64,000 nt of DNA. Source: Streptomyces violaceusniger Tu 4113 (GTDB lineage Bacteria; Actinomycetota; Actinomycetes; Streptomycetales; Streptomycetaceae). The position numbers and the translations under genes are program-made. The stretch is from NCBI RefSeq assembly GCF_000147815.2, contig NC_015957.1:4526001-4590000 (forward strand), in the 5' to 3' direction. Numbering within the stretch: the stretch's first letter is position 1; each line of letters opens with the position of its first letter. Positions 8,441-63,000 of this stretch are shown one piece after another. A model generated the notes under the pieces. The model did not search any database, had not been told where the DNA came from, and worked only from the letters and a program-made list of their open reading frames with translations.

Positions 8441-11400
8441 ATGCCTGCTGCATCCAACCAGAACAAGGCCGTTGAAGCGCTGCGCAAGTCGTTCAAGGAA
8501 ATCGAGCGGCTCCGGCATCAGAACCGCCAGCTGACCAGTTCGGCCACCGAGCCCATTGCGATCATCGGTATGGCCTGCCGATTTCCGGGTGGAGTGAATT
8601 CTCCGGAAGCGCTGTGGCAGCTGGTCGCCGACGGATCGGACGCGATCTCGCCCTTCCCGACAAACCGTGGCTGGGACGTGGAGGGGCTCTACAATCCGGA
8701 CCCGGAGCATCCGGGTACCAGTTACGTTCGCGAAGGCGGTTTCCTCCACGACGCGGACCAATTCGACTCCGCGTTCTTCGGCATCTCGCCTCGTGAGGCC
8801 CTGGCCATGGATCCCCAGCAGCGGCTGCTGCTGGAGACGTCGTGGGAGGTGTTGGAGCGGGCGGGCATCGACCCCGCGTCACTGCGTGGCAGCCAGACAG
8901 GCGTCTTCACCGGTGCCATGCACACCACTTACGCATCCGAGGCCGCGCAGATCCCGGACGAGATCGAGCCGTACCTCCACAACAGCGCCACCACCAGCAT
9001 CGCCTCGGGCCGTGTCTCCTACACCTTCGGCTTCGAAGGCCCCGCGCTGACCGTGGACACCGCGTGCTCATCGGCGCTGGTCGCCCTGCATCTGGCCGCT
9101 CAGTCGCTGCGCCAGGGCGAGTGTTCCATGGCGCTGGTCGGCGGTGCGACGGTCATGGTGAGTCCCGAGGGCTTTGTCACCTTCAGCCGGCAGCGCGGAC
9201 TGGCCACCGACGGCCGGTGCAAGGCGTTCGCCGACGGAGCCGACGGCACCACATGGTCCGAGGGCATCGGTGTGCTGTTGGTGGAGCGGCTGTCCGATGC
9301 CCGGCGCAACGGGCACCAGATACTGGCGGTGGTGCGCGGCTCCGCCGTGAACCAGGATGGCGCGAGCAACGGTCTGACGGCTCCCAACGGCCCGTCACAG
9401 CGCCGTGTGATCCGGCAGGCCCTCGAAAACTGCGAGCTGACCGCTGGTCAGGTCGACGTGGTCGAGGCGCACGGTACGGGTACCACGCTGGGCGACCCGA
9501 TCGAGGCGCAGGCGCTGCTGGCGACGTATGGGCAGGACCGGCCGGAGGGGCGGCCGTTGTGGTTGGGCTCGCTGAAGTCGAACCTCGGTCATACGCAGGC
9601 CGCTGCCGGTGTGGCCGGCGTCATCAAGATGGTGATGGCGATGCGGCATGGCGTGCTGCCGAAGACGCTGCATGTCGACGCTCCGTCGAGCCACGTGGAC
9701 TGGTCCGAGGGCCAGATCGAGCTGTTGACCGAGGCGCGGGCGTGGCCGGAGACGGGCGAGCCGCGCAGGGTTGGCGTGTCCTCGTTCGGTGTGAGCGGGA
9801 CGAACGCGCATGTGATCCTTGAGCAGGCTCCGGAGGTCGAGACCGAGGCCGAGACCGCGGAGGAGCCTGCTGACGGTGGTGTCGCGGGGGTCGCGGGTCC
9901 GGTGGCGTGGGCGGTGTCGGGTCAGAGCGATACCGCGTTGCGGGCGCAGGCCGGGCGGCTGCGGGAGTTCGTGGCGGCCCGTCCGGAGCTGGGCGCCGCC
10001 GATGTGGCTCTCTCCCTGGTGACGACCAGGTTCGCGTTCGGGCAGCGCGCCGTGGTGACCGGGACCAGCCGTGAGGAACTCCTCGAGCGCCTGGAGGCGG
10101 TGGCCGAGGGGGCGAGGCTCCCCGGTGTGGTCTGGGGAAAGGACGCCGAAACACCTGGTCGTTCGGTGTTTGTGTTCCCGGGGCAGGGTGCGCAGTGGGT
10201 GGGCATGGCGGTGGAGTTGCTGGAGTCCTCGCCGGTGTTCGCGGAGGCGATCGGTGAGTGTGAGTCGGCTCTGTCGGCTCATGTGGACTGGTCGTTGACG
10301 GATGTGCTGCGTGGGATTGAGGGTGCTCCCGGTTTTGACCGGGTGGATGTGGTGCAGCCTGTTCTTTTCGCGGTGATGGTGTCGTTGGCGAAGTTGTGGC
10401 GTTCGGTGGGTGTGGAGCCGGATGCGGTGATGGGTCACAGTCAGGGTGAGATCGCCGCGGCCTGCGTCGCGGGTGCGCTCTCGCTGGAGGACGCCGCGAA
10501 GGTGGTGGCCTTGCGGTCGCAGGCGATCGCGGTGGGTCTTGCGGGTCGTGGTGGCATGGTGTCGGTCGGGTTGCCGGTCGACCAGGTCAAGGAGCGTATC
10601 GCCGCGTGGGATGGTGCGATCTCGGTCGCCGCTGTCAACGGCCCCGGTTCGGTGGTGGTTTCCGGTGATCCGGGTGCGCTGGATGAGATGGTCGCGCAGC
10701 TTGAGGGTGAGGAGATCCGCGTCCGCCGGGTTCCGGTGGACTATGCCTCGCACTCGGCGCATGTGGAGGCGATTCGCGAGGAGCTGCTGAAGGTTCTGGC
10801 GGACATCGCGCCGCGTTCCTCCGAGGTGCCGTTCTACTCGACGGTCTCCGGCGAACTGGTGGATACGGCTGGTTTGGACGCCGAGTACTGGTACCGGAAT
10901 CTGCGGCAGACGGTCGAGCTGGAGTCCACGACTCGGACGCTGCTCGATGCGGGTCACACCGTGTTCATCGAGGCGAGCCCGCATCCGGTACTGATGCTGC
11001 CGTTGCAGCAGACCGTGGAGGCCGCCGAGGCGCAGGTGGTGGTCGTCGGCACGCTGCGACGGGATGAAGGCGGGCCTGAGCGGTTCCTGACCTCGGCCGC
11101 CGAGCTGTATGTCAGCGGGGTCGGCGTTGACTGGCGGAAGGTGTTCGCGGGCCACGGCGCCCGCCACGTTGATTTGCCCACCTACGCCTTCCAGCGGGAG
11201 CGCTTCTGGCTTGATGGGCCCGCGGGTGTGGGCGATGTGGGTTCGGTGGGGTTGGGCTCGCTGGGGCATCCGTTGCTGGGTGCGGTGGTGTCGTTGGCCA
11301 GTGGTGGCGGAATGCTGCTGAGCGGGCGGCTGTCGCTGGCCACGCATGGGTGGCTGGCGGATCACGCCGTCCACGGGGTGGTGTTGTTGCCCGGGACGGC

Positions 11401-14400
11401 GTTCGTGGAGCTGGTGGCACGGGCGGGCGACCAGGTCGGCTGTGGCCGGGTCGAGGAACTCATCCTGGAAGCGCCGCTGATCGTGCCTGCGACGGGTGGC
11501 GTACAACTTCAGGTTGAGGTGGGGGAGACGGACGCTTCCGGCTACCGCGAGGTGAGTGTGTTCTCGCGGGAGGAAGCGGAGGGCGAAGGTGCCGCGTGGA
11601 CGCGGCATGCCCATGGTGTGCTGGGTTCGGCCGCGCCCCTCTCCGCGGCGCGGTTCGACTTTGGTGTGTGGCCTCCGGTGGGGGCTGAGTCGGTTGATGT
11701 GTCGGGTGAGTATGCGCGCGCGGCGGAGGACGGGCTGGAGTATGGGCCGGTTTTCCAGGGGTTGAAGCGTGCGTGGCGACGTGATGGTGAGGTGTTCGCG
11801 GAGGTCGAGCTCCCGGAGGGAGAGCGGGAGCGGGCGGGCCAGTTCGGTCTGCATCCGGCGTTGTTCGACTCGGCGTTGCACGCGATGGGTGTGAGCGAGG
11901 GCCTGGCGGGTGGTTCGGGGAGTCTGCTGCCGTTCTCGTGGCGTGGGTTTGCTCTGGAGGCGGTGGGTGCGACATCGCTGCGGGTGCGGCTGGCGTCGGC
12001 GGGTGCCGGGTCGGACGCGGTGTCGGTGCTGGTGGGGGATGAGTCGGGGCGTGGGGTGGCGTCGGTCGAGTCGCTGGTGTTGCGTCCGGTTGATGCGGAT
12101 CAGCTGAACGCTGTGGGTGGGGTGGCGTGGGATGCGCTGTTCCGGGTGGAGTGGGTGGGCGCGCCCGGGGCTGTGGTGGCGGGTGAGGTGGCGCCGCGGA
12201 CTGAGGTCATGCGGGTCGTCTCCGGTGGTGCGGATGTGGTGGGTGAGGTGTATGGCCGGGTCCTTGAGGTCTTGGAGCGGGTCCAGGCGTGGGTGGCGGA
12301 CGACGATCTCGCCGGTGAGCGGTTGGTGGTGGTGACCCGGGGCGCTGTCGATACGGGCGATGGCGTAAGGGATTTGGCGGGGGCCGCGGTGTGGGGCCTG
12401 GTGCGGTCCGCGCAGTCGGAGAATCCCGGGCGTCTGGTCTTGGTGGACACCGATGACCTGGACGGCCTCGGCGATGTTCTTCCCGGGGCGCTGGCGTTGG
12501 GCGAGGAGCAGGTGGTGGTGCGGTCGGGTGCGGTGCGGGTGCCGCGTCTGGGCCGGTCACTGCCTTCGGGTGAAGCTCCGGAGTCGGAGGTGTTCGGTTC
12601 CGGCGCGGTGCTCGTGACTGGTGGCACGGGTGTGCTGGGAGGCTTGGTGGCCCGGCGTCTGGTGACCGGGCATGACGTCAAGAAGCTGGTGTTGCTGTCT
12701 CGTCGTGGTGCGGAGGCTGAGGGTGCGGCGGAGTTGCGGGCCGGGTTGGAGGCCGTCGGCGCCGAGGTCGTGATCGCGGCGTGTGATGCCGCGGACCGGG
12801 AGGCTCTGGCCGGGGTGTTGTCGGGGTTGCCGGAGGGCTTTGGTCTGAGTGGTGTGGTGCATGCGGCGGGTGTGCTCGATGATGGGTTGCTGACGTCGCT
12901 GACCCGTGAGCGGGTTGAGTCGGTGTTGCGGGCGAAGGTGGACGCGGCGTGGAATCTGCATGAGCTGACCGCGGGGATGGACCTGTCGGCGTTTGTGTTG
13001 TTCTCGTCGGCCACTGGTGTGCTGGGTGGCGCGGGGCAGAGCAACTACGCGGCGGCGAATGTGTTCCTGGACGGCCTGGCGTCCTGGCGCCGGACCCGGG
13101 GGTTGCCGGGTGTGTCGATGGCGTGGGGTCTGTGGGCCGAGGCCAGCGGTATGACCGGACACCTCGGCGAGGATGACATCCGGCGGATATCCCGCTCGGG
13201 TGTGATGCCGCTGGCCACGGACGAGGGGCTTGAGCTGTTCGACGCCGCTCTGGTCTCGGACGTGGTGGTGCCCGTACTCTTCCGGCTGGATATCCCGGCG
13301 CTGCGCGCGCAGGGCGCCGAGCTCCCCGCCCTCTTCCGTAACGTCGTGCCGGGGATGCCCGTCCGGCGTGTCGCGGGCGCCGGAGAGGCGGACGCGGATG
13401 AGGTTGCCGCCCGCCTACGGCGGCGACTGGTCAGCATGTCCGAGGCGGATCAGGAACAGTTCCTGCTCGAAGAGCTGATCCGTGTCCACGTGGCCGCCGT
13501 CTTGGGACACGCCAAGTCGGACGCTGTGGAGGTGGGACGCCCCTTCAAGGACCTGGGCTTCGACTCGCTCACCGCCGTGGACTTGCGGGCCCGTCTGAGC
13601 GCGGAAACGGGTCTGCGCCTCCCGGCGACACTCGTTTTCGACTACCCGAACCCGACGGTACTGGCGGGCCATCTGCGCTCGGAGATCCTCGGCTCCCAGG
13701 GCAGCGCCATCGCGGCACCGGCGGGCGGGTCCTACGGGGCCGCGTGGCGCAAGGACGACGAGCCGATCGCGATCGTGGCCATGAGTTGCCGCTTCCCCGG
13801 TGCGGTGCGGACGCCCGAGGAGCTGTGGCAGCTGGTGATGGCGGGCACCGATGCCACGTCGTCGCTCCCGTCCAACCGTGGCTGGGACCTCGAGTCCACG
13901 TACGACCCGGACCCCTCGCGTGAGGGCACGTACTACGTCCGCAACGGTGGCTTCCTCTACGAGGCGGATGAATTCGACCCGGAGTTCTTCGGGATCTCGC
14001 CGCGTGAGGCGCTGTCGATGGATCCGCAGCAGCGGCTGCTGCTGGAGACGTCGTGGGAGGCGTTCGAGCGGGCCGGCATCGCTCCCGAGACGGCGAAGGG
14101 AAGCCGGACCGGCGTCTTCGTCGGCGTGATGTACAACGACTACGGCAGCCGTCTGGAAGGGAACGCCCCCGAAGGTTTTGAGGGCTACCTGGGCATGGGC
14201 AGCGCGGCCAGCGTCGCCTCGGGCCGGATCTCCTACACTTTCGGCCTTGAGGGGCCTGCTGTGACGGTGGACACCGCGTGCTCGTCGTCGCTGGTCGCCC
14301 TGCATCTGGCGGTCCAGGCGCTGCGCCAGGGCGAGTGCGACATGGCGCTGACCGGTGGTGCGACGGTGATGTCCACACCGGTCGCGCTGGTGGATTTCAG

Positions 14401-17400
14401 CCGTCAGCGCGCGCTGTCCGCGGATGGCAAGTGCAAGGCGTTCAGCAATCGCGCCGACGGTTTCGGATTCGCCGAGGGCGTCGGGCTGCTGCTCGTGGAG
14501 CGGCTGTCGGACGCGAGACGCAATGGGCACGAGGTGCTGGCCCTCGTCCGGGGTTCGGCGACCAACCAGGATGGTGCGTCCAACGGCCTGACCGCCCCGA
14601 ACGGCCCGTCTCAGCAGCGGGTGATCCGCGCGGCGCTGGCGAACGCCGGGCTGTCGGCGGCCGAGGTGGACGCGGTCGAGGCACATGGCACCGGCACCCA
14701 GCTGGGCGATCCCATTGAGGCGCAGGCTCTGCTGGCCACCTACGGCCAGGACCGGCCCGCGGACCAGACAGTGTGGCTCGGCTCGGTGAAGTCGAACATC
14801 GGCCATGCGCAGGCGGCGGCCGGTGTGGCTGGTGTCATCAAGATGGTGATGGCGATGCGGCATGGCGCGCTGCCGAAGTCGCTGCACATCGATGAGCCGT
14901 CGGCGCATGTGGACTGGTCCGCGGGTGGAGTGCGCCTGCTGACGGACGATATGCCCTGGCCGGAGACGGGGCGGCCGCGGCGCGCGGCGGTCTCCTCCTT
15001 CGGGATGAGTGGCAGCAATGCCCACGCAGTGCTGGAACAGGCCCCGCTCGACGACGCTCCCAGCCTTGCCGCCGATGACGACGCCCCGGCCGGGGAACTG
15101 CCGAAGATCACGCCGTGGGTGATCTCCGGACGGTCGGAGACCGCGGTGGAGGCGCAGGCGGAGCGGCTGCTGGCGCATGTGCGCGAGCACGGCGAGGTTT
15201 CGCCCGCCGATGTCGGGCTGTCGTTGGCGACGACGCGCAGTGTGTTCGAACACCGCGCGGTGGTGCTGGCGGGCGACGGGGACGGCCTCCTCAACGGCCT
15301 GGGCGCGTTGGCCGAGGGGAATGTGTCGCCTGGTGTGGTACGGGGGATGGCGGCGGCCCGGGACCAGGCAGTGCTTGTCTTCCCTGGTCAGGGGTCGCAG
15401 TGGGTGGGGATGGCGGCGGAGTTGCTGGAGTCTTCGCCGGTGTTCGCGGAGCGGATCGGTGAGTGCGCGGCCGCGCTGGCGCCGTTCGTGGACTGGCCGC
15501 TCGCGGATGTGCTGCGGGGTGGCGAGGGTGCCGCGGAGGCGTTGGAGCGGGTGGATGTGGTGCAGCCCGTGTTGTGGGCGGTGATGGTGTCGTTGGCTGA
15601 GATGTGGCGTTCGTATGGGGTGGAGCCCGCGGCTGTCATTGGTCATTCGCAGGGTGAGATCGCGGCGGCGTGTGTGGCGGGTGCGCTGTCGCTGGAGGAC
15701 GCCGCGAAGGTGGTGGCGCTGCGGAGCAAGGCGCTGCGGGCGTTGTCGGGGCGTGGCGGGATGGTGTCGGTGTCGTTGCCGCTGGAGGAGGTTCGGGAGC
15801 GGCTCGGGGCGTGGGGTGAGCGGCTGTCGGTGGCGGCGGTGAACGGGCCCTCGGCGGTCGTGGTCTCCGGTGACGCCGACGCGTTGGATGAGCTGCTGGC
15901 GGTGTGCGAGGGCGAGGGGATCCGGGCGCGGCGTGTGCCGGTGGATTACGCCTCCCACTGCGCTCACGTCGAGGCCATCGAGGACGAGCTTCAGCAGATC
16001 CTCGCGGGGATCGCCCCGCGCTCGTCGTCGGTGCCGTTCTATTCGACGGTGACCGGCGGGGTGCTGGATACGGTCGCTCTGGACGCCGCGTACTGGTACC
16101 GGAATCTGCGTCAGACGGTCCGTTTTGACGAAACCGTCCGTGTTCTGCTGGCCGACGGTTTCCAGGTGTTCATCGAGGCCAGTGCCCATCCGGTGCTCAC
16201 CATGGGGGTGGAGCAGACGGCCGAGGACCACGCCACTCACGTCACCGCCGTGGGTTCGCTGCGCCGTGAGGAAGGCGGCCTGGACCGATTTCTGACGTCC
16301 GTGGCCCAGGCGTATGTGGGCGGTGTGTCCGTCGACTGGCCGGGGGTGTTCGCCGGGACGGGTGCGAAGCAGGTGGATCTGCCGACGTATGCCTTCCAGC
16401 GCACGCGCTTCTGGCTGGAGCCCGACGCCATCGGCGCTGCTGGTGATGTGGCGTCGGTGGGGCTGGACGCGGCGGGGCATCCGTTGCTGGGTGCTGCCGT
16501 GCCGCTGCCTGACTCCGATGGGTTCCTGCTGACCGGTCGGCTGTCGCTGCGTACGCATCCCTGGCTTGCCGACCATGCGGTGCTGGGCCGGGTCATCCTG
16601 CCCGGTACGGCGTTTGTCGAGTTGGCGTCGCGGGCGGGTGACGCGGTGGGTTGCGATCGGTTGGAGGAGCTGACGCTGCAGGCGCCTTTGGTGCTGCCCG
16701 ATGAGGGGGCGGTCCAGGCGCAGTTGGTCGTGGGCGGGCCCGGGCAGGATGGGCAGCGGGAGTTGAGCGTGTATTCCCGCCGTGAGGGTGGCCCGGACGC
16801 GTCGTGGACGTGCCATGCGAAGGGCGTGCTGGGCGTGGCGTCCGCCGCCGACAGGACGAGGGGCCCGGTGGACCTGGGGACATGGCCGCCGGCGGGGGCG
16901 GAGGCGGTCGGGACCGCGGGCTTCTACGAGGATGTGGCGGCCACCGGGCTGGCGTACGGACCGGTGTTCCAAGGGCTGCGGGCCGTGTGGCGCAAGGGCG
17001 ACGAGGTCTTCGCGGAGGTGGCGCTGCCGGAGGAGTCGCGGGCGGAGGCGGCCCGGTTCGGGCTGCACCCCGCGCTGCTCGATGCGGCGCTGCACGCCTG
17101 GCTGGTGTGCGTCGCCGCGGAGAGGGAGGAGGGGGACGGGAGCACGGGCGGGATCCAGCTGCCATTCGTGTGGAGCGGTGTGTCGCTGTATGCCACCGGC
17201 GCGACCTCCCTGCGGGTGCGGCTGGCCCGCACGGGCGCCGAAGGGATGTCCGTGCTGGTGGCCGACGCGGCCGGAACGCCGGTGGCCACGGCGGAGGCGC
17301 TGGTGACCCGGCCGGTCTCGGAAGCGCAGCTCGCGGCGTCCGCCGACGACGGCGAGTCGCTGTACCGGGTGGAGTGGGTCGTGGCGCCCGCCACCGACCC

Positions 17401-20402: not shown

Positions 20403-30773
<10,371 letters not shown>

Positions 30774-30817
30774 GCGGAACGCACCCCGTCCCTGGAAGTA
30801 ACCGGCCGAAGGCTTTC

Positions 30818-45651: not shown

Positions 45652-45676
45652 TGTTTTTGGAAGTGTGGAGATACTG

Positions 45677-54600: not shown

Positions 54601-57600
54601 CGTCGTCGCGGACGTCGACTGGGAGCGTCTGGCTCCCGGACTGGCCGGGGCCGGCGGTGGAGCTCTCCTCGGTGACATCCCCGAGGTGCGCAAGCACCTG
54701 ACCACGGTCAACGGCGGTGCCACAACGGAGGCGGCCACATTCGCCGAGACGCTCGTAGGACTCTCGGCGGCCGAGCGGAACCAGGCCGTGCTGGACCTGG
54801 TGCGAGGCCACGCGGCCGCCGTACTCGGCCACACCTCGGTGGAGGCGGTCGAGCCCGGCCGGGCCTTCCGCGACCTCGGGTTCGACTCCCTCACCGCGGT
54901 CGAGCTGCGCAACCGGCTGGACCTCGCGACGGGGCTGCGTCTCCCGGCCACGCTGGTCTTCGACTATCCGAGCGCCGTCGAACTGGCCGACTACCTGGAC
55001 GCCGAGGCGTTCGGCACCACCCAGCCGGCCGTGGCCGCGGCCGAGCCGAGGGCCGTCGCCGTGGACAGTGACCCGATCGCGATCGTCGCGATGAGCTGCC
55101 ACTTCCCCGGGGATGTCCATACCCCGGAGGAGCTGTGGCGGCTGGTCGCCGAGGGCGGCGACGCCATCGCCGAGTTCCCCGCCGACCGCGGTTGGGACCT
55201 CGACGGGCTGTACGACCCCGACCCCGAGCGGTTCGGCACGTCCTACGCACGCGAGGGCGGCTTCCTCTACGGCGCCCCGGACTTCGATGCGGGGTTCTTC
55301 GGGATCTCGCCGCGCGAGGCGCTGTCCATGGACCCGCAGCAGCGGCTGCTGCTGGAGACGTCGTGGGAGGCGTTCGAGGGGGCCGGTATCGCTCCGGAGT
55401 CGCTGCGGGGCACCCGGGCGGGTGTGTTCGTCGGCACGAACGGCCAGGACTACGCCGGGTTGTGGATGGACGCGCAGGGTGAGCTCGAAGGCCACCTGGG
55501 CACGGGAAGCGCGGCCAGCGTGGCGTCGGGGCGCATCTCCTACACCTTCGGTCTCGAGGGACCCGCGGTGACGGTGGACACCGCGTGCTCCTCGTCGCTC
55601 GTGGCACTCCACATGGCCATGCAGGCGCTGCGCCAGGGCGAGTGTGATCTGGCGTTGGCCGGTGGTGTGTCGGTGATGTCGACACCGGGTGCGTTCGTGG
55701 AGTTCAGCCGTCAGCGTGGACTCGCTCCCGACGGTCGGTGCAAGCCGTTCTCCGACGGGGCGGATGGCACCGGGTGGGGCGAGGGCGTCGGCATGCTGCT
55801 CGTGGAGCGGCTGTCGGATGCGCGGAAGAACGGTCATCCGGTGCTGGCGATCGTGCGTGGCAGCGCCATCAACCAGGACGGTGCGTCGAACGGCCTGACG
55901 GCGCCCAACGGTCCGTCGCAGCAGCGGGTCATCCGGCAGGCGCTGGCCAGTGCCGGGCTATCGGCGGCCGACGTGGACGTGGTGGAGGCGCACGGTACGG
56001 GTACGTCGCTGGGTGACCCGATCGAGGCGCAGGCGCTGCTGGCAACCTACGGTCAGGGGCGGCCCGAGGGGCAGCCGCTGTGGCTGGGTGCCATCAAGTC
56101 GAACATCGGTCATACGCAGGCGGCCGCCGGTGTCGCCGGGGTCATCAAGATGGTGATGGCCATGCGTGAGGGCGTGTTGCCGAAGATCCTTCACCTGGGT
56201 GAGCCGTCGCGGGAGGTCAACTGGTCGGCGGGTGAGGTGCGTCCGCTGACGGAGGCCACCGCGTGGCCGGAGACGGGCCGGCCGCGCCGGGCGGGTGTCT
56301 CCTCGTTCGGCCTGAGCGGCACCAACGCGCACACCATCATCGAACAGGCCCCCGCTGTGGCGGAGTCCGAGGTCTCGGACACCGCGACCCCCGGAACGGC
56401 CGAGTCGATGGACGTGGTGCCGTGGCTGGTCTCCGGGAAGAGCCCGGAGGCGCTGCGGGCGCAGGCCGAACGGCTGCACGCGCATGTGGCGGCCCGGGCC
56501 GACCTCGGGACGCTGGACGTGGGGCACTCGCTGGCAACCCGCTCGGTGTTCGAGCACCGGGCCGTGCTGGTCGGCGGGGACCGGGAAGACCTGCTGCGTG
56601 GTCTCGAGGCCGTGGCCGGGCGTGGGATCGCCTCCGGCGTCGTCCAGGGGCAGGCGGTACCGGGCGGCAAGACGGCGTTCCTGTTCTCGGGTCAGGGCGC
56701 GCAGCGCCTGGGCATGGGGCGGGAGTTGTACGAGGCGTTCCCGGCGTTCGCGCAGGCGTTGGACGAGGTGTGCGCGCATCTGGATGTGGTGCTGGACCGC
56801 CCGCTGCGTGAGGTGGTGTTCGCGGCCGAGGGCAGTGCGGATGCCGAACTGCTGGATCAGACGGCGTTCACCCAGCCCGCGCTGTTCGCCATCGAGGTGG
56901 CGCTGTTCCGGCTGCTGGAGCACTTCGGCATCACCCCGGATGTGGTGATCGGCCACTCCATCGGTGAGATCGCGGCCGCGCATGTGGCCGGGGTGTTCTC
57001 GCTGGAGGACGCGTGCACGCTGATCGCGGCCCGCGGCCGGCTGATGCAGGCGCTGCCCGAGGGCGGCGCGATGGTCGCCATCCAGGCATCCGAGGAGGAG
57101 GTCGCCGCCTCGATCGCCGGCCGCGAGCACGAGATGAGCATCGCGGCGGTCAACGGTCCGTCGGCAGTGGTGATCGCCGGGCATGCGGCCGGGGTCCAGG
57201 AGGTGGCGGACACATGGACGGCGAAAGGGGCAAAGACTAGGCGTTTGCGGGTCTCTCATGCGTTTCACTCTTGCCTCATGGACAGTATGTTGGACGCGTT
57301 CGGCCACGTGGTCCGTGAGGTCTCTTTTGAGCCGCCGACCATGGCGCTGGTGTCCAATGTCACCGGTGGGCTGGTATCGGAAGCGGAGACGTGTTCTCCG
57401 GAGTATTGGGTTCGGCATGTGCGTGAGGCGGTTCGGTTCGCGGATGGGGTACGTTCGCTTGAGGCGTTGGGTGTGACCAGGTTCTTGGAAGTGGGTCCCG
57501 ATGGTGTGCTCACCGCGATGGTTCAGGACTGCCTCGCGGAAAGCGCCGAAGACACTTCGGCGGAAATGCTGGTTCCTGTGCTGCGCAAGCAGCGCCCCGA

Positions 57601-59929
57601 AACAGGGGCGTTGGTGACGGCGCTGGCCGAATTGCATGCGCACGGTGGCGCGGTGAACTGGGAATCGGTATTCGCGGACCGCGGTGCGGGCCAGGTGCAG
57701 TTGCCCACATACGCGTTCCAGCGCGAGCGGTTCTGGCCGGAGACGTCCGCGGCCGGTGGCGGCCGGGATGCCGGTTCGACCGCCGCGGATTCGGTGGACG
57801 CGCGATTCTGGGAGGCGGTCGAGCGCGAGGATCTCGAAGCGCTTGCCGGGGCGCTCGACGTCGACGGCAATACGCCGTTGAGCGCGGTTCTGCCCGCGCT
57901 GTCCGCGTATCACCGGAGCAACCGCGAGCAGTCGAGGATCGACGGCTGGCGCTATCGGGTGTCGTGGAAGCCGGTCGCTGACGTGACCGGTGGGTCGTTG
58001 CCGGGGACCTGGCTGGCGGTGGTTCCGGCGTCGCGTGCCGAGGACGAGCTGGTGGCAGGCGTTGTCTCCGGGCTCGAGCGGCATGGCGCGGATGTGGTGT
58101 CGCTGGTGGTGGATGAGCGGCACCTGGACGCCGGGGTGTTGGGCGAGCGGCTGCGTGAGGTGATCGCCGACGCGCCCGAGCTGGGTGGTGTGTTGTCGCT
58201 GCTCGCTCTGGACGAGGAGCCCTGCCCGGAACACCCCGCGCTGTCCGGCGGCATCGCTTCCACGCTGACGCTGGTGCAGGCGCTGGTGGAGGTGGGTGCC
58301 GGGGCCCCGCTGTGGTGTGCTTCGCGGGGTGCCGTGTCGGTGGGACGTTCCGACCGGCTCGCCGGCGTGACGCAGTCGCAGGTGTGGGGTCTGGGCCGGG
58401 TCGTGGGGCTGGAGCACTCCGAGGTGTGGGGTGGTCTGGTGGATCTGCCCGAGGTGCTGGACGAGCGTGCCGTGAGCCGGTTGGTGGGCGTGCTGTCCGC
58501 CGGGGGCGATGAGGACCAGGTCGCCGTGCGCGGTTCGGGAGTGTTCGTCCGGCGCCTGATGAGGGCTGAAGCTGGGGTCGCCGAGGGTGCGGAGCGGTCC
58601 TGGCGGGTTGGCGGCTCGGTGCTGGTGACCGGTGGTACGGGCGCGCTGGGCTCGCGGATCGCACGGTGGGCGGTGGGCCAGGGTGCCGAGCATCTGGTGC
58701 TGACCAGCCGTCGTGGTCTGGAGGCGCCGGGCGCGTCGGAGTTGCGTGCGGAGCTTGAGGGGCTGGGCGCCCGGGTGACCGTGGCGGCCTGCGATGTAGC
58801 CGACCGTGCGCAACTGGCCGCGGTGCTCGACGCCGTCCCGGAGGAGTTCCCGCTGCGGGCCGTCTTCCACGCGGCCGGTGTGGAGCAGGCCGCCGAGCTG
58901 GCGGGGATGAGTCTGGCGGACGCGGCGTCGGTGGTATCGGGGAAGGCGGCGGGAGCCGACCATCTGGACGCGCTGCTGGGCGACCGTGAACTCGACGCCT
59001 TCGTGGTCTTCTCCTCGATCGCCGGTGTGTGGGGCAGCGGTGGCCAGGCCGCGTACGGGGCGGCCAACGCCTACCTGGACGCGCTGGTGGAGGGCCGCCG
59101 CGCCCGGGGTCTTGCCGGTACCGCGGTGGCCTGGGGTCCCTGGGCCGAAGGCGGTATGGCGGCCGGGAGCGGAGGCGAGCAGCTGGCGCGTCGCGGACTG
59201 ATCAGCATGGCGCCCGACCTGGCGATCGCCGCCTTGCAGGGCGCGATCGTGGGCGACGACGGTGTGGTGACGGTCGCGAACATGGACTGGAAACGATTCG
59301 CCCCCGCGTTCACGATGGAGCGGCCGAGCCCGCTCATTGGCGAGCTGCCCGAGGTCGTATCGGTTCTGGAACAGGCCCGTGCCGCCGAAGAAGGCAACGC
59401 CGAGGCCGGATCGCGGTTGCGGGAACGGCTCTCCGCACTGGCTCCTGGCGAGCGGGAGCGCGCCGTCCTCGACCTGGTACGCGGTCACGCGGCCGCGGTT
59501 CTCGGATTCTCCGGTATGGAAGGCGTGGAATCCGACCGCGCCTTCAAGGAATTGGGATTCGACTCGCTCACGGCGGTAGAATTCCGAAACCGGTTGAACG
59601 CGGACACCGGACTCCAGCTGCCGACCACGCTGGTCTTCGACTACCCCAACGCAAGGACTCTCGCAGAACACGTACGAGCGGGCGTACTGCCTGACGAAGG
59701 GACATCCGCTACTCCGCTGATCGCGGATCTGGAAAAACTCGAGGCATCACTTTCCACGGCTGAGCCGGACAACGCCGAGCGAATGGCCATCGCATCCCGA
59801 CTCCAGGTGCTCCTCGCCAAGCTGAACGGTGGCGAGGGCGGGACGTCGGACACTGAGAGCATTACGCAGCGGCTTGACGGGGCGTCGGACGACGATCTCT
59901 TCGATTTCATCGAAAACGAGCTCAGCTAA
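45677..59929 (+). CDS. Type I modular polyketide synthase, gene 4 (modules 8, 9 and 10)
   Basis: A protein of 4750 residues. ATG 45677 follows GTGGAG by 6 nt and is 25 bp after the gene 3 stop, so translation may be coupled. The frame is open back to 45518 inside gene 3, but those residues are not PKS-like. Order: docking helix (MATSSERVVEALRASLREND), KS8 (from 35, Cys206), AT8 (Ser667), KR8 (near 1217), ACP8 (Ser1531), KS9 (from 1591, Cys1763), AT9 (Ser2217), KR9 (near 2756), ACP9 (Ser3071), KS10 (from 3132, Cys3304), AT10 (Ser3761), KR10 (near 4313), ACP10 (Ser4630), C-terminal docking helices. All three ATs have GHSIG and HAFH (malonyl) and no DH is present, so the protein makes three consecutive hydroxyl-bearing units. 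The second half of AT10 has unusual codon use. Confidence 0.97.
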   Translation: MATSSERVVEALRASLRENDRLKLQNQRLVAASKEPIAIVGMSCRFPGGVRTPEQLWRLVADAVDAISGFPEHRGWDTEVLYHPDPDNPGTSYTREGGFIYEADQFDPQFFGMSPREAAATDPQQRLVLEASWEVIERTGIDPLSLRGRPVGVFVGTNGQDYASHVYEVGGELDGYLTNSSASVVSGRISYTLGLEGPAVTLDTACSSSLVALHLAVQALRQGECELALAGGVTVMSSPGTFVEFSRQRGLAPDGRCKPFADGADGTGWGEGVGMLLVERLSDARRNGHKVLAVVRGSAVNQDGASNGMTAPNGPSQQRVIRQALASAGLSAAEVDAVEAHGTGTKLGDPIEAQALLATYGQGRPEGRPLLLGAIKSNIGHTQAAAGVAGVIKMVMAMRHGVLPKVLHVDEPSRQVDWSAGEVRLLTETTPWPETDRPRRAGISSFGVSGTNAHTIIEHAPEADRDGQPEAMGPKAGEGKRPAVLPWLVSGKSTEALAAQAGQLHAHLSAHSELDVADVGFSLATTRTAFQHRAALVAGDRDEFLRALEALTNGESSAQVVVQGVVRSEGTLAFLFSGQGAQRLGMGRELYETFPVFADAWDEVCAHLDGLLDRPLREVVFAAEGSADADLLDQTAFTQPALFAVEVALFRLLEHWGVTPDVVIGHSIGEIAAAHVAGVFSLEDACTLVAARGRLMQGLPEGGAMVAIEASEEEIAPSLAGREAEVSIAAVNGPTAVVIAGDEAVALEIAGQWAERGRKMRRLRVSHAFHSPRMDAMLDDFRKVVDGLSFAPPSIDVISNVTGGVASDTEVCSPEYWVRHVREAVRFLDGVRALMRQGVTTFLEVGPDGVLSAMAQDCLTERAEPASAPVTVPVLRKDRSEAAALITALAQLHAHGADVAWASAFDGLGARRVDLPTYAFQRRRYWIEKSTAAVGADAGVRDEVDARFWEAVEREDLQALAHALDFDDEASLGAVLPALSAYHRSSRDQSTIDGWRYRVSWKPVPDAAEGSLSGTWLVVVPASRAGDELVSQVVAGLERHGAGVVSLVADERDLDAGVLAARLREAVAEVPELDGVLSLLALEEEPCPGYPGLSGGYALSLVLAQAMVEVDVPARLWCGTRGAVSVGRWDRLAGVVQSQVWGLGRVVGLEHSAVWGGLVDVPESLDERGVARLAGVLSAGDGEDQVAVRGSGVFARRLVRADAGEGAERPWRARGTVLVTGGTGALGSRVARWVVRQGAEHVVLTSRRGAEAPGAGELRDGLEALGARVTVVACDVTDREALAGVLASVPEEFPLSAVFHAAGVEQAAELRGMSLSDAAAVVSGKAAGAACLNELLGERELDAFVVFSSIAGVWGSGGQAAYGAANAYLDALVEDRRARGLAGTAVAWGPWAEGGMAAAEGVEWGLARRGLLAMDPALALAALRGAIAGDDGAVTVADMDWERFAPSFTLGRPSPLIGDLPEVAKVLEAVSAPGGANTSAGLRERLTGLTGAETDRALLDLVRGHVAAVLGFAGGEVVEPDRAFKELGFDSLTAVEFRNRLNAETGLVLPATLVFDYPSAAVLAGHLRAEVLGTQDAVAVPSAVAVPVDDDLIAIVGMSCRFPGGVRSPEELWNLVAAGTDAITDFPSDRGWDVEGMYDPDPERSGTFYAREGGFLDGAGEFDAAFFGISPREALAMDPQQRLLLETSWEAFERAGIDPASLRGSQIGVYVGAATSGYGMGLQEIPEGLEGQLLTGSATSVVSGRISYTLGLEGPALTVDTACSSSLVALHQAAQAVRQGECEMALAGGVTVMVSPDAFVEFSRQRGLAPDGRCKPFADAADGTGWSEGVGMLLVERLSDARRNGHQVLAVVRGSAVNQDGASNGLTAPNGPSQQRVIRQALANARLSASEVDAAEAHGTGTMLGDPIEAQALLATYGKDRPEGRPLWLGALKSNIGHTQAAAGVAGVIKMVMAMRHGVLPKVLHVDEPSRQVDWSVGEVRLLTEATAWPETGQPRRAGVSAFGVSGTNAHTIIEQAPVYDEAVRDEAPAEDHGVLPWALSARSPEALRAQAERLRSYLMERTELGALDVGYSLVATRSALEHRAVVTAADRAELLRGLEAVAAGETAPGVVQSAARTSGSTAFLFSGQGAQRLGMGRELYEAFPVFARALDEVCAHLDVVLDRPLREVVFAAEGNADAELLDQTAFTQPALFAVEVALFRLLEHWGVTPDVVIGHSIGEIAAAHVAGVFSLEDACALVAARGRLMQALPEGGAMVAVQASEEEIVPLLAGREAEVSIAAVNGPTAVVIAGDEGAVLELTAQWAEQGRKTRRLRVSHAFHSPRMDAMLDDFRKVVDGLSFTPPSIALVSNVSGKSAGAEVCSPEYWVRHVREAVRFADGVRALEAQGVTTFLEVGPDGVLSAMARECLTAEETSASVVVPALRKDRPEPQALTTALAELHVHGVTADWKHLFSGRGARKVELPTYAFQRQRYWLENSGRATGGSAADSVDARFWEAVEREDLGALAEALDIDGTGSLGELLPALSSYRRQQHDRATVEGWRYRVSWKPAPDLATVSLPGTWLLVVPAGLANGDVTTSISQGFENHGARVVPVAVAADADTDGLAQALLGALDGESEVGVMSLLALDEEPYAGQPVVAAGLALTLRLVQALAGLDMDVRLWCASRGAVSVGRSDRLTSPVQAEVWGLGRVAALEHPRMWGGLVDLPEVLDERAVGRLAGVLSAEGAEDQAAVRGSGVFVPRLVRVVSSGGGAWRPSGSVLVTGGTGALGAHVARWVVTEGAEHVVLTSRRGLAADGAPQLKAELEAMGALVSVVACDVADREALAEVLAGIPERFPLRGVVHAAGVLDDGVLDGLSVDRVAGVLGVKVEGAWHLHELTADLDLDAFVLFSSFAGVVGGAGQGAYAAANAYLDALAALRRGVGLAGTAVAWGPWAEAGMAAEGRAEERLRGGMVSPMAPSLAVAALRWAVGHDAASLVVADVDWERLAPGLAGAGGGALLGDIPEVRKHLTTVNGGATTEAATFAETLVGLSAAERNQAVLDLVRGHAAAVLGHTSVEAVEPGRAFRDLGFDSLTAVELRNRLDLATGLRLPATLVFDYPSAVELADYLDAEAFGTTQPAVAAAEPRAVAVDSDPIAIVAMSCHFPGDVHTPEELWRLVAEGGDAIAEFPADRGWDLDGLYDPDPERFGTSYAREGGFLYGAPDFDAGFFGISPREALSMDPQQRLLLETSWEAFEGAGIAPESLRGTRAGVFVGTNGQDYAGLWMDAQGELEGHLGTGSAASVASGRISYTFGLEGPAVTVDTACSSSLVALHMAMQALRQGECDLALAGGVSVMSTPGAFVEFSRQRGLAPDGRCKPFSDGADGTGWGEGVGMLLVERLSDARKNGHPVLAIVRGSAINQDGASNGLTAPNGPSQQRVIRQALASAGLSAADVDVVEAHGTGTSLGDPIEAQALLATYGQGRPEGQPLWLGAIKSNIGHTQAAAGVAGVIKMVMAMREGVLPKILHLGEPSREVNWSAGEVRPLTEATAWPETGRPRRAGVSSFGLSGTNAHTIIEQAPAVAESEVSDTATPGTAESMDVVPWLVSGKSPEALRAQAERLHAHVAARADLGTLDVGHSLATRSVFEHRAVLVGGDREDLLRGLEAVAGRGIASGVVQGQAVPGGKTAFLFSGQGAQRLGMGRELYEAFPAFAQALDEVCAHLDVVLDRPLREVVFAAEGSADAELLDQTAFTQPALFAIEVALFRLLEHFGITPDVVIGHSIGEIAAAHVAGVFSLEDACTLIAARGRLMQALPEGGAMVAIQASEEEVAASIAGREHEMSIAAVNGPSAVVIAGHAAGVQEVADTWTAKGAKTRRLRVSHAFHSCLMDSMLDAFGHVVREVSFEPPTMALVSNVTGGLVSEAETCSPEYWVRHVREAVRFADGVRSLEALGVTRFLEVGPDGVLTAMVQDCLAESAEDTSAEMLVPVLRKQRPETGALVTALAELHAHGGAVNWESVFADRGAGQVQLPTYAFQRERFWPETSAAGGGRDAGSTAADSVDARFWEAVEREDLEALAGALDVDGNTPLSAVLPALSAYHRSNREQSRIDGWRYRVSWKPVADVTGGSLPGTWLAVVPASRAEDELVAGVVSGLERHGADVVSLVVDERHLDAGVLGERLREVIADAPELGGVLSLLALDEEPCPEHPALSGGIASTLTLVQALVEVGAGAPLWCASRGAVSVGRSDRLAGVTQSQVWGLGRVVGLEHSEVWGGLVDLPEVLDERAVSRLVGVLSAGGDEDQVAVRGSGVFVRRLMRAEAGVAEGAERSWRVGGSVLVTGGTGALGSRIARWAVGQGAEHLVLTSRRGLEAPGASELRAELEGLGARVTVAACDVADRAQLAAVLDAVPEEFPLRAVFHAAGVEQAAELAGMSLADAASVVSGKAAGADHLDALLGDRELDAFVVFSSIAGVWGSGGQAAYGAANAYLDALVEGRRARGLAGTAVAWGPWAEGGMAAGSGGEQLARRGLISMAPDLAIAALQGAIVGDDGVVTVANMDWKRFAPAFTMERPSPLIGELPEVVSVLEQARAAEEGNAEAGSRLRERLSALAPGERERAVLDLVRGHAAAVLGFSGMEGVESDRAFKELGFDSLTAVEFRNRLNADTGLQLPTTLVFDYPNARTLAEHVRAGVLPDEGTSATPLIADLEKLEASLSTAEPDNAERMAIASRLQVLLAKLNGGEGGTSDTESITQRLDGASDDDLFDFIENELS
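45779..50395 (+). other. PKS module 8: KS-AT(malonyl)-KR-ACP
   Basis: AT8 has HAFH (His767). KR8 is A-type: FHAAGVEQ instead of LDD, a GVWGSGGQ tryptophan, and AAYGAAN with catalytic Tyr. Predicted outcome is an L beta-hydroxyl. Confidence 0.92.
50447..55015 (+). other. PKS module 9: KS-AT(malonyl)-KR-ACP
   Basis: AT9 has HAFH (His2317). KR9 is B-type (HAAGVLDD) with GAYAAAN. The KS motif normally VEAHGTGT reads AEAHGTGT. Predicted outcome is a D beta-hydroxyl. Confidence 0.92.
55070..59690 (+). other. PKS module 10: KS-AT(malonyl)-KR-ACP
   Basis: AT10 has GHSIG and HAFH (His3861), but the residues after it read SCLMDSML where AT7-9 have [10 protein letters not shown]10 is A-type (FHAAGVEQ, GVWGSGGQ, AAYGAAN) and resembles KR8. 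Predicted outcome is an L beta-hydroxyl. Confidence 0.92.
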
Positions 59930-60006: not shown

Positions 60007-63000
60007 ATGGTGAACGAAGATAGGCTTCGGGACTACCTCAAACGGGTAACGGCAGATCTGCACCAAGCGCGCCAACGCCTGCGCGAGCTGGAGGCAGGAG
60101 AGCAGGAGCCCATCGCGATCGTGGCGATGAGCTGCCGTTTCCCGGGCGGTGTGGGGAGCCCCGAGGACCTGTGGCGGTTGGTGGCCGGCGGTGGTGACGC
60201 CATCTCCGACTTCCCGTCCAACCGTGGCTGGGACGTGGACGGGATGTACAACCCGGACCCCGAGAGCTCGGGCACGTTCTACTCCCGTGAGGGTGGCTTT
60301 CTCCACGACGTGGCCGAGTTCGACGCGGGCTTCTTCGGGATCTCGCCGCGTGAGGCCCTTGCCATGGATCCGCAGCAGCGGCTGCTGCTGGAGACCTCGT
60401 GGGAGGCGTTCGAGCGTGCGGGCATCGCTCCGGGGTCGGTGAAGGGCCGTCGGGGCGGTGTCTTCGTGGGAGCCTCGACCTCCGGCTACGGGGCCGATGT
60501 CGCTGAGCTCCCCGAGGAAGTCGAAGGCCATCTGCTCACGGGTACCTCGACTTCCGTCGTATCAGGCCGTATCGCGTACACCTTCGGTCTTGAAGGACCC
60601 GCGGTGACGGTGGACACCGCGTGTTCATCGTCGCTGGTCGCGCTGCATCTGGCGGCCCAGGCGCTGCGTCAGGGCGAATGCGACCTGGCACTTGCCGGTG
60701 GTGCGACGGTGATGTCGACCCCGGGCGCCTTTGTCGAGTTCAGCCGGCAGCGGGGGCTGGCCCCCGATGGCCGGTGCAAGCCGTACGCGGACGCGGCGGA
60801 TGGCACGGGGTGGTCCGAGGGTGTCGGCATGCTGCTCGTGGAGCGGCTGTCGGACGCGCGGAAGAACGGCCACCCGGTGCTGGCCATCGTGCGGGGCTCG
60901 GCGGTCAACCAGGACGGTGCGTCCAACGGTCTGACGGCGCCGAACGGCCCGTCCCAGCAGCGCGTCATCCGGGACGCCCTGTCGAGCGCCCGGCTGGCCC
61001 CGTCCGACGTGCACGTGGTGGAAGGGCACGGGACCGGTACGTCCCTGGGTGACCCGATCGAGGCGCAGGCGCTGCTGGCCACCTACGGCCAAGAGCGGCC
61101 GGAGGGCCGCCCGCTGTGGCTGGGCGCGCTCAAGTCGAACATCGGTCACACGCAGGCCGCGGCCGGTGTGGCCGGTGTCATCAAGATGGTGATGGCGATG
61201 CGGCACGGGGTGCTGCCGCAGACGCTGCATGTGGACGAGCCCTCGCGCCAGGTGGACTGGTCGGTGGGCGAGGTGCGGCTGCTGACGGAGGCCACCGAGT
61301 GGCCCGAGACGGGTCAGCCGCGCCGGGCCGGTGTCTCCGCGTTCGGTGTGAGCGGCACCAACGCGCACACCATCATCGAGCAGGCCCCGCCGGTCGAGGA
61401 CGAGGCCGAGGCGACCCCGGTGTCCGGGGGTGACACTGGGGTGGCCACGTGGCTGCTGTCAGGTCGTGACTCGGACGCGCTGCGGGCCCAGGCCGCCCGC
61501 CTCAAGGCGTTCCTGCTGGAGCGGACCGAGCTGAGCGCGCAGGACGTCGGCCATTCCCTGGTGGCGACCCGGTCGATGTTCGAGCACCGCGCGGTGGTGT
61601 CCGGTGCGAACCATGCGGAACTCCTCGCCGGGCTCGAAGCCGTGGCCACGGGCGATGTCGCTCCCGCCGTGGCCCAGGGCGTGGCGGGGACGGCCGTCAA
61701 GACGGCGTTCCTCTTCTCCGGTCAGGGCGCGCAGCGCCTTGGGATGGGCCGGGAGCTGTATGACGGCTTCCCCGTGTTCGCCCAGGCGCTGGACGAAGTG
61801 TGCGCGCACCTGGATGTCGTGTTGGACCGTCCGCTGCGTGAGGTGGTGTTCGCGGCGGAGGGGAGCGCGGACGCCGACCTCCTGGACCGGACGGCGTTCA
61901 CCCAGCCCGCGCTGTTCGCCATCGAGGTGGCACTGTTCCGGCTGTTGGAGCACTGGGGCGTCACCCCGGATGTGCTGATCGGCCACTCCATCGGTGAGAT
62001 CGCCGCCGCCCACGTGGCCGGGGTCTTCTCCTTGGAGGACGCGTGCACGCTGGTGGCGGCCCGCGGCCGGCTGATGCAGGCGCTGCCCGAGGGCGGCGCC
62101 ATGGTGGCGGTGCAGGCGTCGGAGGAGGAGATCTCCGGATCGCTCGCCGGGCGTGAGGCCGAGGTGAGCATCGCCGCCGTCAACGGTTCCACCGCCGTCG
62201 TCATCGCCGGTGACGAGGCCGCGGTGCTGGAGATCGCGGCCCAGTGGTCGGAACAAGGCCGTAAGACGAGCCGGCTGAAGGTCAGTCACGCTTTCCACTC
62301 CCCGCGTATGGACGCGATGCTGGACGACTTCCGCCGTGTCGTGCGGGGGCTGTCCTTCCAGACTCCTACCCAGGCATTGGTCTCCAATGTCACCGGGGAG
62401 CCCGTTGGCGCCGAAGAAATCAGCTCGCCCGACTACTGGGTGCGGCATGTGCGCGAGGCCGTGCGCTTCGCCGACGGCATTCGCTCCCTCCACGCCCAGG
62501 GCGTGACCGCCTACCTGGAGGTCGGGCCCGATGGTGTGCTCTCGGCGATGGCCCGGGACTGCCTGGCCACCGAGTCGGCGTCGGCCCCGGTCGTGGTGCC
62601 CGTGCTGCGCAAGGGACGCCCCGACGCACAGGCTGTGATGGCCGCGCTGACCGAGGCCCACGTCCACGGTGTGACGGTGAACTGGGCGCAGGTCTTCGAC
62701 GGGCGGGGCGCCCGCAGGGTCGAGCTGCCGACGTACCCCTTCCAGCGTCAGCGCTACTGGCTGGAGGGTACGAGCGCGGCGTCCAAGGGTTCCGCCGCGG
62801 ACAGTGTGGACGCGCGGTTCTGGGACGCGGTGGAGCGCGAAGACCTGGAGGCGCTGGCCCAGGCGCTGGATGTCGACGGCGCCGGCTCACTCGGCGAGCT
62901 GCTGCCCGCGCTGTCCTCGTACCGGCGCCAGCAGCGTGACCGGGCCACCGTCGACGGCTGGCGGTACCGGATTTCATGGAAGCCGGTCTCGGAGATCCCC

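Follow-up and report, generated by a model that had tools for sequence, protein, structure and literature searches.

The window analysed here, a 64,000-nt stretch of the Streptomyces violaceusniger Tu 4113 genome, carries on its forward strand part of a modular PKS cluster that, judged from its sequence, is of the azalomycin/niphimycin (marginolactone) type. Its PKS proteins comprise modules M1 (KS-AT-DH-KR-ACP) and M2 (KS-AT-DH-ER-KR-ACP) at positions 8420–20305, M3 (KS-AT-KR-ACP) and M4 (KS-AT-DH-KR-ACP) at 20403–30770, M5 (KS-AT-DH-KR-ACP) with M6 and M7 (each KS-AT-KR-ACP) at 30859–45648, and M8, M9 and M10 (each KS-AT-KR-ACP) at 45518–59926. The M8–M10 ORF as listed (start 45518) overlaps the neighbouring ORF (end 45648), and its protein therefore probably starts later. 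The KR-type and AT motifs (LDD, Trp, HAFH, YASH) and the DH catalytic motif used here are those generally established for PKSs. Among the modules in which a KR is the only reductive domain, those of M3 (24060–24617; without Trp), M7 (44326–44883) and M9 (53936–54493) carry LDD and are B-type, and those of M6 (39640–40197), M8 (49313–49870) and M10 (58607–59164) carry Trp without LDD and are A-type; the KR of M1 (12596–13156) also has LDD without Trp (B-type). The DHs of M1, M4 and M5 retain the catalytic His and Asp, in M4 within the motif HVFAETVLFP where Glu takes the place of the usual Gly, and each of these modules has a KR and no ER; M2 combines DH, ER and KR. These chemistry labels derive from domain content, not from products, and for M1–M10 they agree with the initial annotation of the locus.

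That annotation had proposed that a hexamer located after the V(F/Y)xG of each KS reports the chemistry of the preceding module, and the ten hexamers of KS2–KS11 (14126–60489, all on the forward strand) read as it stated. VMYNDY follows the DH-KR modules M1 (KS2, 14126–14143), M4 (KS5, 31318–31335) and M5 (KS6, 36502–36519), and AVAPDY follows the DH-ER-KR module M2 (KS3, 20868–20885). Behind the B-type KRs of M3, M7 and M9 stand SNYQDY (KS4, 25557–25574) and twice TNGQDY (KS8, 46145–46162; KS10, 55436–55453); behind the A-type KRs of M6, M8 and M10 stand TTTSGY (KS7, 41152–41169), AATSGY (KS9, 50813–50830) and ASTSGY (KS11, on the next protein, 60472–60489). KS1 carries AMHTTY (8915–8932, forward strand); on the presumed order of the proteins, its upstream module is probably the ACP-KS-AT-DH-ER-KR-ACP module at the cluster's opposite end, outside the window. 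A perfect match of hexamer to module has a probability of 1/16800 under label permutation, with the proposed grouping taken as given and the groups formed post hoc. From M6 to M11 the KR type alternates strictly between A and B, and therefore TSGY fits the module upstream (A-type, 3/3) and its own module (B-type, 3/3) alike; because of this alternation, the direction of the match could be settled only by data from outside the window. Across the rest of the cluster (M11–M20, followed by KS12–KS21) the rule fitted as written in 4/10 cases (KS12, KS13, KS15 and KS18) and, if loosened, in 3/10 others (KS17 FSGSGY, KS19 SNYHDY, KS20 SSGSGY). Two of the ten were misfits, KS16 (ASPSGY after DH-ER-KR) and KS21 (GANTGY after DH-KR), and one, KS14 (VTYQDY), which follows a DH module without KR, was left unscored.

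The core rule, a KS loop matching upstream chemistry, is already published as ketosynthase gatekeeping, since the VMYH and TNGQ rules are in print: the hexamer corresponds to a loop described as VMYH after dehydrating modules and TNGQ after B-type (D-hydroxyl) modules (PMC11321453). That paper (Ray, Saif and Keatinge-Clay 2024) credits the motifs to a 739-KS survey, citing Hirsch, Fitzgerald and Keatinge-Clay 2021 (ACS Chem Biol 16:2515); further support for the loop is printed in PMC12370991. As described there, the published motifs share with the window the same loop, the same four positions, the enoyl and D-hydroxyl assignments and the upstream logic. The link between sequence and stereochemistry, originally offered as the annotator's own reading, was thus in print for VMY and TNGQ (PMC11321453). 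Val-Met-Tyr occupies positions 1–3 of KS2, KS5 and KS6, and by domain reading the upstream M1, M4 and M5 have the DH His/Asp and no ER; position 4 is Asn in these KSs, as opposed to His in the published motif, VMYN being a common variant among the 1017 pairs described below. KS4 has SNYQ, and KS8 and KS10 have TNGQ, behind M3, M7 and M9, which are B-type without DH. A graph-network predictor of KS specificity (PMC13347036) is structure-based and substrate-labelled, whereas the present analysis is sequence-based and domain-labelled; its best models had the DH and KR-B classes, a success that its authors link to the Hirsch 2021 fingerprints, and several models with ER, and with KR-A versus unreduced, were dropped for overfitting.

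The large-set comparison covered 1017 module/next-KS pairs from 311 proteins and the window's genome. Three protein searches supplied the best 120 of 1125, 1198 and 1573 matches, all near the cluster's proteins, and therefore the sample leans to similar actinomycete PKSs. The first KSs of proteins, with no upstream module on the same protein, were left out. Hexamers were placed by alignment; placement by regular expression misplaced some cases (e.g. VFIGAA), and its counts were not used. KS clusters were formed greedily at 85% identity, KRs with LDD were taken as B-type even where Trp was also present, and the column and classifier analyses used 370 representatives and KS columns of >90% occupancy. 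The rule table omits the 13 pairs of the window's cluster and, among the 949 pairs of other organisms, the 79 in which the KS shared a KS cluster with one from the window's cluster. Of the remaining pairs, those classed as broken DH, C-type KR, unclear KR or "other" were also omitted, which left 53/55 own-genome and 793/870 other-organism pairs scored.

Mutual information with the upstream class was highest at KS2-domain positions 126, 125, 127 and 128 (ranks 1–4; 0.81, 0.69, 0.61 and 0.43 bits). These columns are positions 1–4 of the hexamer, and their information about the module in which the KS itself resides was only 0.05–0.10. A hexamer-only classifier reached accuracies of 0.73, 0.71 and 0.61 when the training KSs were <85, 75 and 70% identical to the test KS, whereas the three nearest neighbours by whole KS fell from 0.69 to 0.41 and 0.18 at the same limits. 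As a predictor of its own module, the hexamer scored 0.43 versus 0.42 for the majority class; whole-KS neighbours predicted the own module somewhat (0.53 versus 0.42, 85% limit). The link that we observed is statistical, points upstream and is concentrated in four residues. In a weighted control, xMY KSs lay in DH modules somewhat above average (0.65 versus 0.39).

In other organisms, outside the window's KS clusters, xMY followed DH modules in 270/274 scored pairs and xNxQ followed B-type KRs in 149/236; another 63/236 xNxQ loops followed A-type KRs, including four modules of P0133. A second sample, selected for its similarity to KS1, gave 16/16 for xMY after DH and 4/6 for xNxQ after B-type. 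Met at position 2 was found after an intact DH in 301/362 pairs (113/140 clusters, leaving 27/140 without Met) versus 0/17 pairs (0/8 clusters) after a DH lacking its catalytic residues (Fisher p 5e-6 by cluster). Protein P0237 has two KSs of one 85% cluster, of which the one behind a broken DH carries TNGQDY and the one behind an intact DH carries VMYHDY. The loop thus depended on intact DH residues, and the absence of Met after a broken DH indicated that it follows chemistry more than domain content. Upstream tracking was also borne out across protein borders: at the 36 listed for this genome, the window's included (neighbours within 1200 bp), xMY occurred at 5/10 borders after a DH module and at none of the remaining 26, and TNGQDY at 4/4 after B-type. 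SGY occurred at 2/9 borders after A-type and 1/8 after DH-ER-KR. A few loops in the border list look misplaced (e.g. TALPGF).

Of the four signatures originally put forward, VMY and, more weakly, xNxQ held in this wider set, and TSGY and AVAPDY did not. Assigning TSGY to A-type and AVAPDY to fully reduced modules had gone beyond the published motifs, and neither generalises. SGY followed A-type KRs in only 15/41 scored pairs of other organisms and 2/8 of the own genome, both outside the window's KS clusters, and had 0 cases in the second sample. Over all 1017 pairs, xxxSGY followed A-type KRs 48 times, KRs with both marks 4 times, DH 10 times, ER 12 times, no reduction 7 times and a broken DH once. 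Strict xxTSGY did not occur as often after B-type or dehydrating modules as after A-type ones, to which all 27/27 cases were confined; these 27 belong to a single KS cluster. Outside the window's KS clusters, [AS]xYQ[DE]Y marks A-type better than SGY does (58/62, the other 4 after unclear KRs); SNYQDY as found in the window follows B-type (5/5 in the full set). Classifier recall for A-type was 0.68, via many loops with no single A-type loop; for fully reduced modules it was 0.17, and 43 different hexamers followed ER modules. Caution is therefore due, as the A-type and fully reduced signatures are not general and TNGQ does not belong to B-type KRs alone.

Residues 1–4 of the hexamer are very probably gatekeeping positions that select the processed chain arriving from the upstream ACP. 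With the loop position assigned from PMC11321453, they would lie in a KS dimer-interface loop ~50 residues N-terminal of the catalytic Cys; solved structures of related KSs exist. The upstream ACP would present the chain, and loop residues would touch its alpha and beta carbons, preferring a correctly processed group; these contacts rest on models published in PMC11321453. Met-2 and Tyr-3 of VMYx may fit an enoyl and exclude a beta-hydroxyl, and Asn-2 and Gln-4 of xNxQ may fit a D-beta-hydroxyl; loops that follow A-type, unreduced and fully reduced steps would be diverse and lineage-specific. We infer that each KS of the window behaves as such a gate.

The initial annotation also saw the evolutionary unit as starting at the AT, spanning the ACP and reaching into the next KS, which is likewise the published definition of the exchange unit. 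We consider this unlikely for the unit as a whole: the ACP part stood, because the ACP tracks the next KS, and the AT part did not, because the AT tracks its own KS. Across 155 module pairs, ACP similarity correlated with that of the next KS (rho 0.37 [0.17, 0.55]) and not the own KS (0.05 [−0.19, 0.30]; at equal AT specificity, 0.31 [−0.06, 0.61] versus 0.11). Such a unit is also favoured by the correlation of AT with the KR (0.43 [0.21, 0.60]) and ACP (0.28 [0.04, 0.47]) of the same module, and by the stronger KS co-evolution with upstream domains reported in PMC10661043. However, AT correlated with its own KS (0.56 [0.32, 0.74]; 0.26 [−0.22, 0.60] at equal AT specificity) rather than the next (−0.09 [−0.28, 0.14]), KR versus next KS gave 0.10 [−0.12, 0.35] in the same set, and the AT–KR correlation was 0.05 in the window's cluster. 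Moreover, the front of the KS follows the upstream KR/ACP, and its C-terminal part more the downstream AT. An artefact of KSQ loading modules was rejected as the source of the AT–own-KS correlation, which persisted after filtering for the catalytic Cys (0.54, 0.56). The updated module or exchange unit (Zhang 2017 and Keatinge-Clay 2017, cited in PMC11321453) ties the KS to upstream domains, in the present data to the ACP above all, and differs from our correlations in the AT, here tied to its own KS. The KS looks mosaic, consistent with the KS-internal recombination hot spot described in PMC10661043. Near-identical DNA tracts were also sought between modules of the cluster; none reached 93% over 300 bases, and a further scan under different limits gave none either. 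Because long gapped alignments (~70–81%) hid any short tract, per-domain identity was used instead.

Pure common descent, by which each KS and the processing domains upstream of it were duplicated as one piece and the hexamer would mark KS lineage without a role in selection, appears very improbable. The identity of KS residues 1–300 co-varies with that of the upstream ACP and KR (rho about 0.1–0.3), and strict TSGY forms one KS cluster, both as common descent would have it. Yet this explanation is already strained by the identity-controlled classifier, in which hexamer prediction survived the removal of similar KSs and whole-KS similarity failed, and the enoyl loop is missing after a broken DH, a contrast that holds in P0237 even for a pair of similar KSs. 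The VMYH mutations reported in PMC11321453, which lower selectivity, also argue against it. That the hexamer reports its own (traditional) module, with the window's upstream match a by-product of A/B alternation, would suit the window's TSGY (3/3 in B-type modules) and TNGQDY (2/2 in A-type modules) but has next to no probability, as VMYNDY occurs in ER, DH and A modules and own-module information and accuracy were near background in the large set.

The cluster was also compared with the azalomycin F PKS, which uses cross-module enoylreduction (PMC9899208, PMC5082578). The DH–KR gap measures 480 bases in M1 and M5 versus 648, 639 and 612 in M4, M20 and M21, making the KR region ~50 residues shorter, and the M1 and M5 KRs are 91% identical in DNA; a short gap and alike KRs are likewise described for azalomycin modules 3 and 6, and a pair of such DH-KR modules served here as a mark of the azalomycin/niphimycin type. 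Both systems have a separate first-module protein with an ER. M1 and M5 are only 80% identical in AT and 81% in DH, whereas 92% is reported over AT-DH-KR for the azalomycin modules, and M2 (DH-ER-KR) gives the window an additional methylmalonyl module, as niphimycin's extra propionate would lead one to expect. The double-bond label of M1 comes from its domains; the product of its azalomycin module 3 homologue, with the same domains, is reduced in trans. KS2 reads VMYNDY in the window versus VVYNDY in azalomycin-like proteins: KSs orthologous to it, after homologues of azalomycin module 3, have VVYNDY in 16/19 and VMYNDY in 3/19 (the window, P0202 and P0204). This split falls exactly where azalomycin uses cross-module enoylreduction, and 4/11 fixed differences between the VM and VV groups lie within the set of 15 KS columns that carry the most information on upstream chemistry. 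Gene conversion was rejected as the source of the KS2 loop, no donor tract being seen within the cluster. A natural gate switch is possible, if doubtful, in which the KS would encode prior reduction by a neighbour's ER (VV) versus enoyl passage (VM), the compound of this strain keeping a methyl-branched side-chain double bond absent from azalomycin.

Our independent check adds to the gatekeeping rule that the signal sits in four residues, has an upstream direction, persists when related KSs are removed and disappears with a broken DH. The link of KS to upstream module underlies current rules for PKS module recombination and, if the Met/Val case is true, the KS loop could help predict reduction across modules, something that domain content by itself does not allow.

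The initial annotation had proposed that the hexamer after V(F/Y)xG in each KS predicts the chemistry of the preceding module, with VMYNDY after double-bond modules, SNYQDY or TNGQDY after B-type modules and TSGY endings after A-type modules. All ten hexamers and ten upstream module types in the window were correct, a perfect match having a chance of 1/16800 under this grouping, itself made after looking. Strict A/B alternation of modules from M6 to M11 meant that TSGY within the window fitted the KS's own module too. On M11–M20, 4/10 pairs followed the rule as written and three more if it was loosened, while two were misfits and one was unscorable. KS21 (L012:11071–11088, in the rest of the cluster), preceded by a DH-KR module that appears intact, carries GANTGY and is the sole KS without VMY after the cluster's four KS-followed DH-KR modules (M1, M4, M5, M20). 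KS16 (L011:6345–6362) has the SGY-type loop ASPSGY after a DH-ER-KR module.

The four PKS proteins with ten modules lie at window 8420–59926, KS11 starts the next protein, and the cluster extends ~60 kb beyond the window end, totaling 22 KS modules; long frames are found 5′ of the PKS genes (window 39–3893 and 3713–8236). The last gene, with domain order ACP-KS-AT-DH-ER-KR-ACP, would appear to encode the protein that starts the assembly line, given its N-terminal ACP and the azalomycin precedent, where a separate protein also carries module 1. M13 (L010:13139–13996) shows the DH motif HVLRGEAVLA and a DH-ACP spacing of only ~80 residues, leaving no space for a KR; the keto group probably stays unreduced at this step, an outcome consistent with the marginolactone hemiketal ring. 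M21 (L012:16159–16716) has a second KR, with Trp, between the B-type KR and the ACP. The 11.1-Mb genome is very rich in PKS genes, giving 152 KS N-terminal family matches, not all type I, and, among ten regions of sequence G000:C3, an open frame of 11156 residues holding seven modules.

The larger set comprised 311 proteins (three overlapping searches, best 120 matches each) plus the own genome, and yielded 1372 full KS domains, 1017 pairs in which a module and the KS after it share a protein, and 395 KS clusters at an 85% identity limit; precision was counted outside KS clusters containing any KS of the window's PKS cluster. There, xMY followed DH modules in 270/274 scored pairs from other organisms and 13/13 from the own genome (cluster-weighted precision 0.97 and 1.00). 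The xNxQ rule was weaker, with B-type upstream in 149/236 and 8/10 scored pairs (0.71 and 0.63) and exceptions in other organisms mostly A-type (63/236). The SGY rule did not carry over: xxxSGY followed A-type modules in 15/41 and 2/8 scored pairs (0.52 and 0.34), and A-type recall by SGY was 0.21 in other organisms. Strict xxTSGY had A-type upstream in 27/27, yet all within one KS cluster. A better A-type mark was [AS]xYQ[DE]Y (58/62, the other four after unclear KRs), found after B-type modules in the full set only as five SNYQDY loops, including that of KS4. A second sample of 78 loci chosen by KS1 similarity left 32 new scored pairs once 66 redundant ones were removed: xMY followed DH in 16/16 and xNxQ followed B-type in 4/6, SGY loops were absent, and the ten pairs without a rule loop were 3 DH, 4 B, 2 A and 1 ER.

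Among the matches listed, the PKS papers containing motif strings were PMC11321453 and PMC12370991. Passages of the former (Ray, Saif and Keatinge-Clay 2024) assign positions 1–4 of a KS dimer-interface loop as VMYH for enoyl and TNGQ for D-β-hydroxyl intermediates, report mutagenesis of VMYH, and credit Hirsch 2021 with a survey that covered 739 KSs in 92 PKSs and Zhang 2017 with the updated module boundary; the VMY and TNGQ rules were therefore already published. According to passages of PMC13347036, the best models were those with DH and KR-B classes, and several ER models, as well as KR-A versus unreduced, were discarded as overfitted. The TSGY rule was not found in the passages of these papers, a scope outside which the main survey, Hirsch 2021, falls. 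The initial observation correctly read an effect that was already known and is here sharpened and limited. TNGQ-like loops also followed A-type KRs (Trp, no LDD) in the large-set proteins P0133, P0160, P0023, P0304, P0237 and others, with four in P0133 (KS clusters 47–50), in conflict with the D-hydroxyl assignment.

The KS columns most informative on upstream class were hexamer positions 2, 1, 3 and 4, in that order, with little information at position 5 and none at position 6; the same columns carried little on the KS's own module. After removal of all KSs at least 70% identical, the hexamer classifier retained an accuracy of 0.61, whereas the three nearest neighbours by whole KS fell to 0.18, indicating that the loop does more than mark lineage. 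Sixty random six-column sets averaged 0.44 (best 0.67), against 0.73 for the hexamer. Recovery by class at the 85% limit was 0.90 for B-type, 0.86 for DH, 0.68 for A-type, 0.48 for unreduced and 0.17 for ER.

Upstream DHs lacking a catalytic residue occurred in 17 pairs from 8 clusters (His to Tyr in 13/17), and 0/17 had Met at position 2 of the next loop, compared with 301/362 pairs where His and Asp were present. Loops after broken DHs were TNGQDY or SNVQDY in 5/8 clusters and LTYHDY, TASSGY or STGQDY in the others; P0237 holds two similar KSs, both in KS cluster 231 (85%), one with TNGQDY after a broken DH and one with VMYHDY after an intact DH. Against a clean split, clusters 166, 188 and 194 also include KSs that lack Met after an intact DH (1, 1 and 3 members, respectively). 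These sequences suggest that the loop follows upstream chemistry rather than domain content, although not cleanly.

The annotation had also proposed a unit of evolution running from AT through ACP into the next KS. Within-protein identity correlations (159 module pairs, 83 proteins) agreed in that ACP tracked the next KS (0.37 [0.17, 0.55]) and not its own (0.05 [−0.19, 0.30]), but AT instead tracked its own KS (0.56 [0.32, 0.74]; next KS, −0.09 [−0.28, 0.14]), as well as its module's KR (0.43) and ACP (0.28). At equal AT specificity, AT-KS dropped to 0.26 [−0.22, 0.60], zero lying inside most intervals. KR was clear with neither the next (0.10 [−0.12, 0.35]) nor its own KS (0.13 [−0.10, 0.35]). 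Along the KS (721 KS pairs, 112 proteins), residues 81–180 correlated with upstream ACP/KR at 0.25–0.28 and downstream AT at 0.04–0.06, and residues 321–420 more with downstream AT (0.25–0.26) than with upstream ACP or KR (0.12–0.16). The window's cluster gave KR-next KS 0.28 (p 0.02), ACP-next KS 0.29 (p 0.03), AT-own KS 0.21 (p 0.008) and AT-KR 0.05, the last disagreeing with the wide set's 0.43. We read this as ACP, often with KR, moving together with the front part of the next KS, which would itself be mosaic, in agreement with the mid-KS recombination hot spot cited in a passage of PMC10661043.

Relative to the azalomycin order, the window has one extra methylmalonyl module, M2; the niphimycin side chain contains one propionate more than that of azalomycin, as stated in a passage of PMC5082578. 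M1 and M5 resemble azalomycin modules 3 and 6, for which a published excerpt describes common KR regions ~50 residues shorter than those of other modules: the DH-KR gap is 480 bases in M1 and M5 and 648, 639 and 612 in M4, M20 and M21, and M1 and M5 share 91% (KR), 81% (DH) and 80% (AT) identity. P0129, from Streptomyces sp. IMB7-145, a strain listed under the niphimycin analogue amycin B in a section of PMC6864768, matches residues 1500–4700 of the fourth protein at 87%.

At the KS2 place, VMYNDY occurred in three proteins (window 14126–14143, P0202 and P0204) and VVYNDY in 16/19, namely 4/4 azalomycin-like and 12/15 niphimycin-like proteins, labels assigned here from module order (P0205–P0208, P0210–P0215, P0218, P0221–P0225); loci L040 and L041 gave two further VVYNDY, the L041 species being already counted. 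The split sits exactly after the module reduced in trans in azalomycin biosynthesis. Passages of PMC9899208 describe azalomycin module 3 as having DH and KR only, its product being nevertheless reduced by the module 1/2 ER, and infer a KS4 preference for the saturated chain; these passages do not mention the KS2-place loop. Among the matches listed, no title or abstract concerned the Met/Val loop, and the string VVYN was absent from eight papers listed. Between three VM and 17 VV KSs (P0233 added) there were 11 fixed differences, of which those at positions 126, 148, 152 and 211 fell among the 15 most informative columns (hypergeometric p 0.0003; against variability-matched columns, overlap p 0.003 and mean informativeness p 0.01). 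A classifier called the three VM loops enoyl (0.999 or more) and was undecided on all five VV loops tried, out of 17 (enoyl 0.39–0.87, ER 0.13–0.61). Because a single change in one lineage may account for it, the split ranks as a lead worth follow-up rather than a result. An unreduced M1 would give the methyl-substituted side-chain double bond noted for compounds of this class in PMC6864768.
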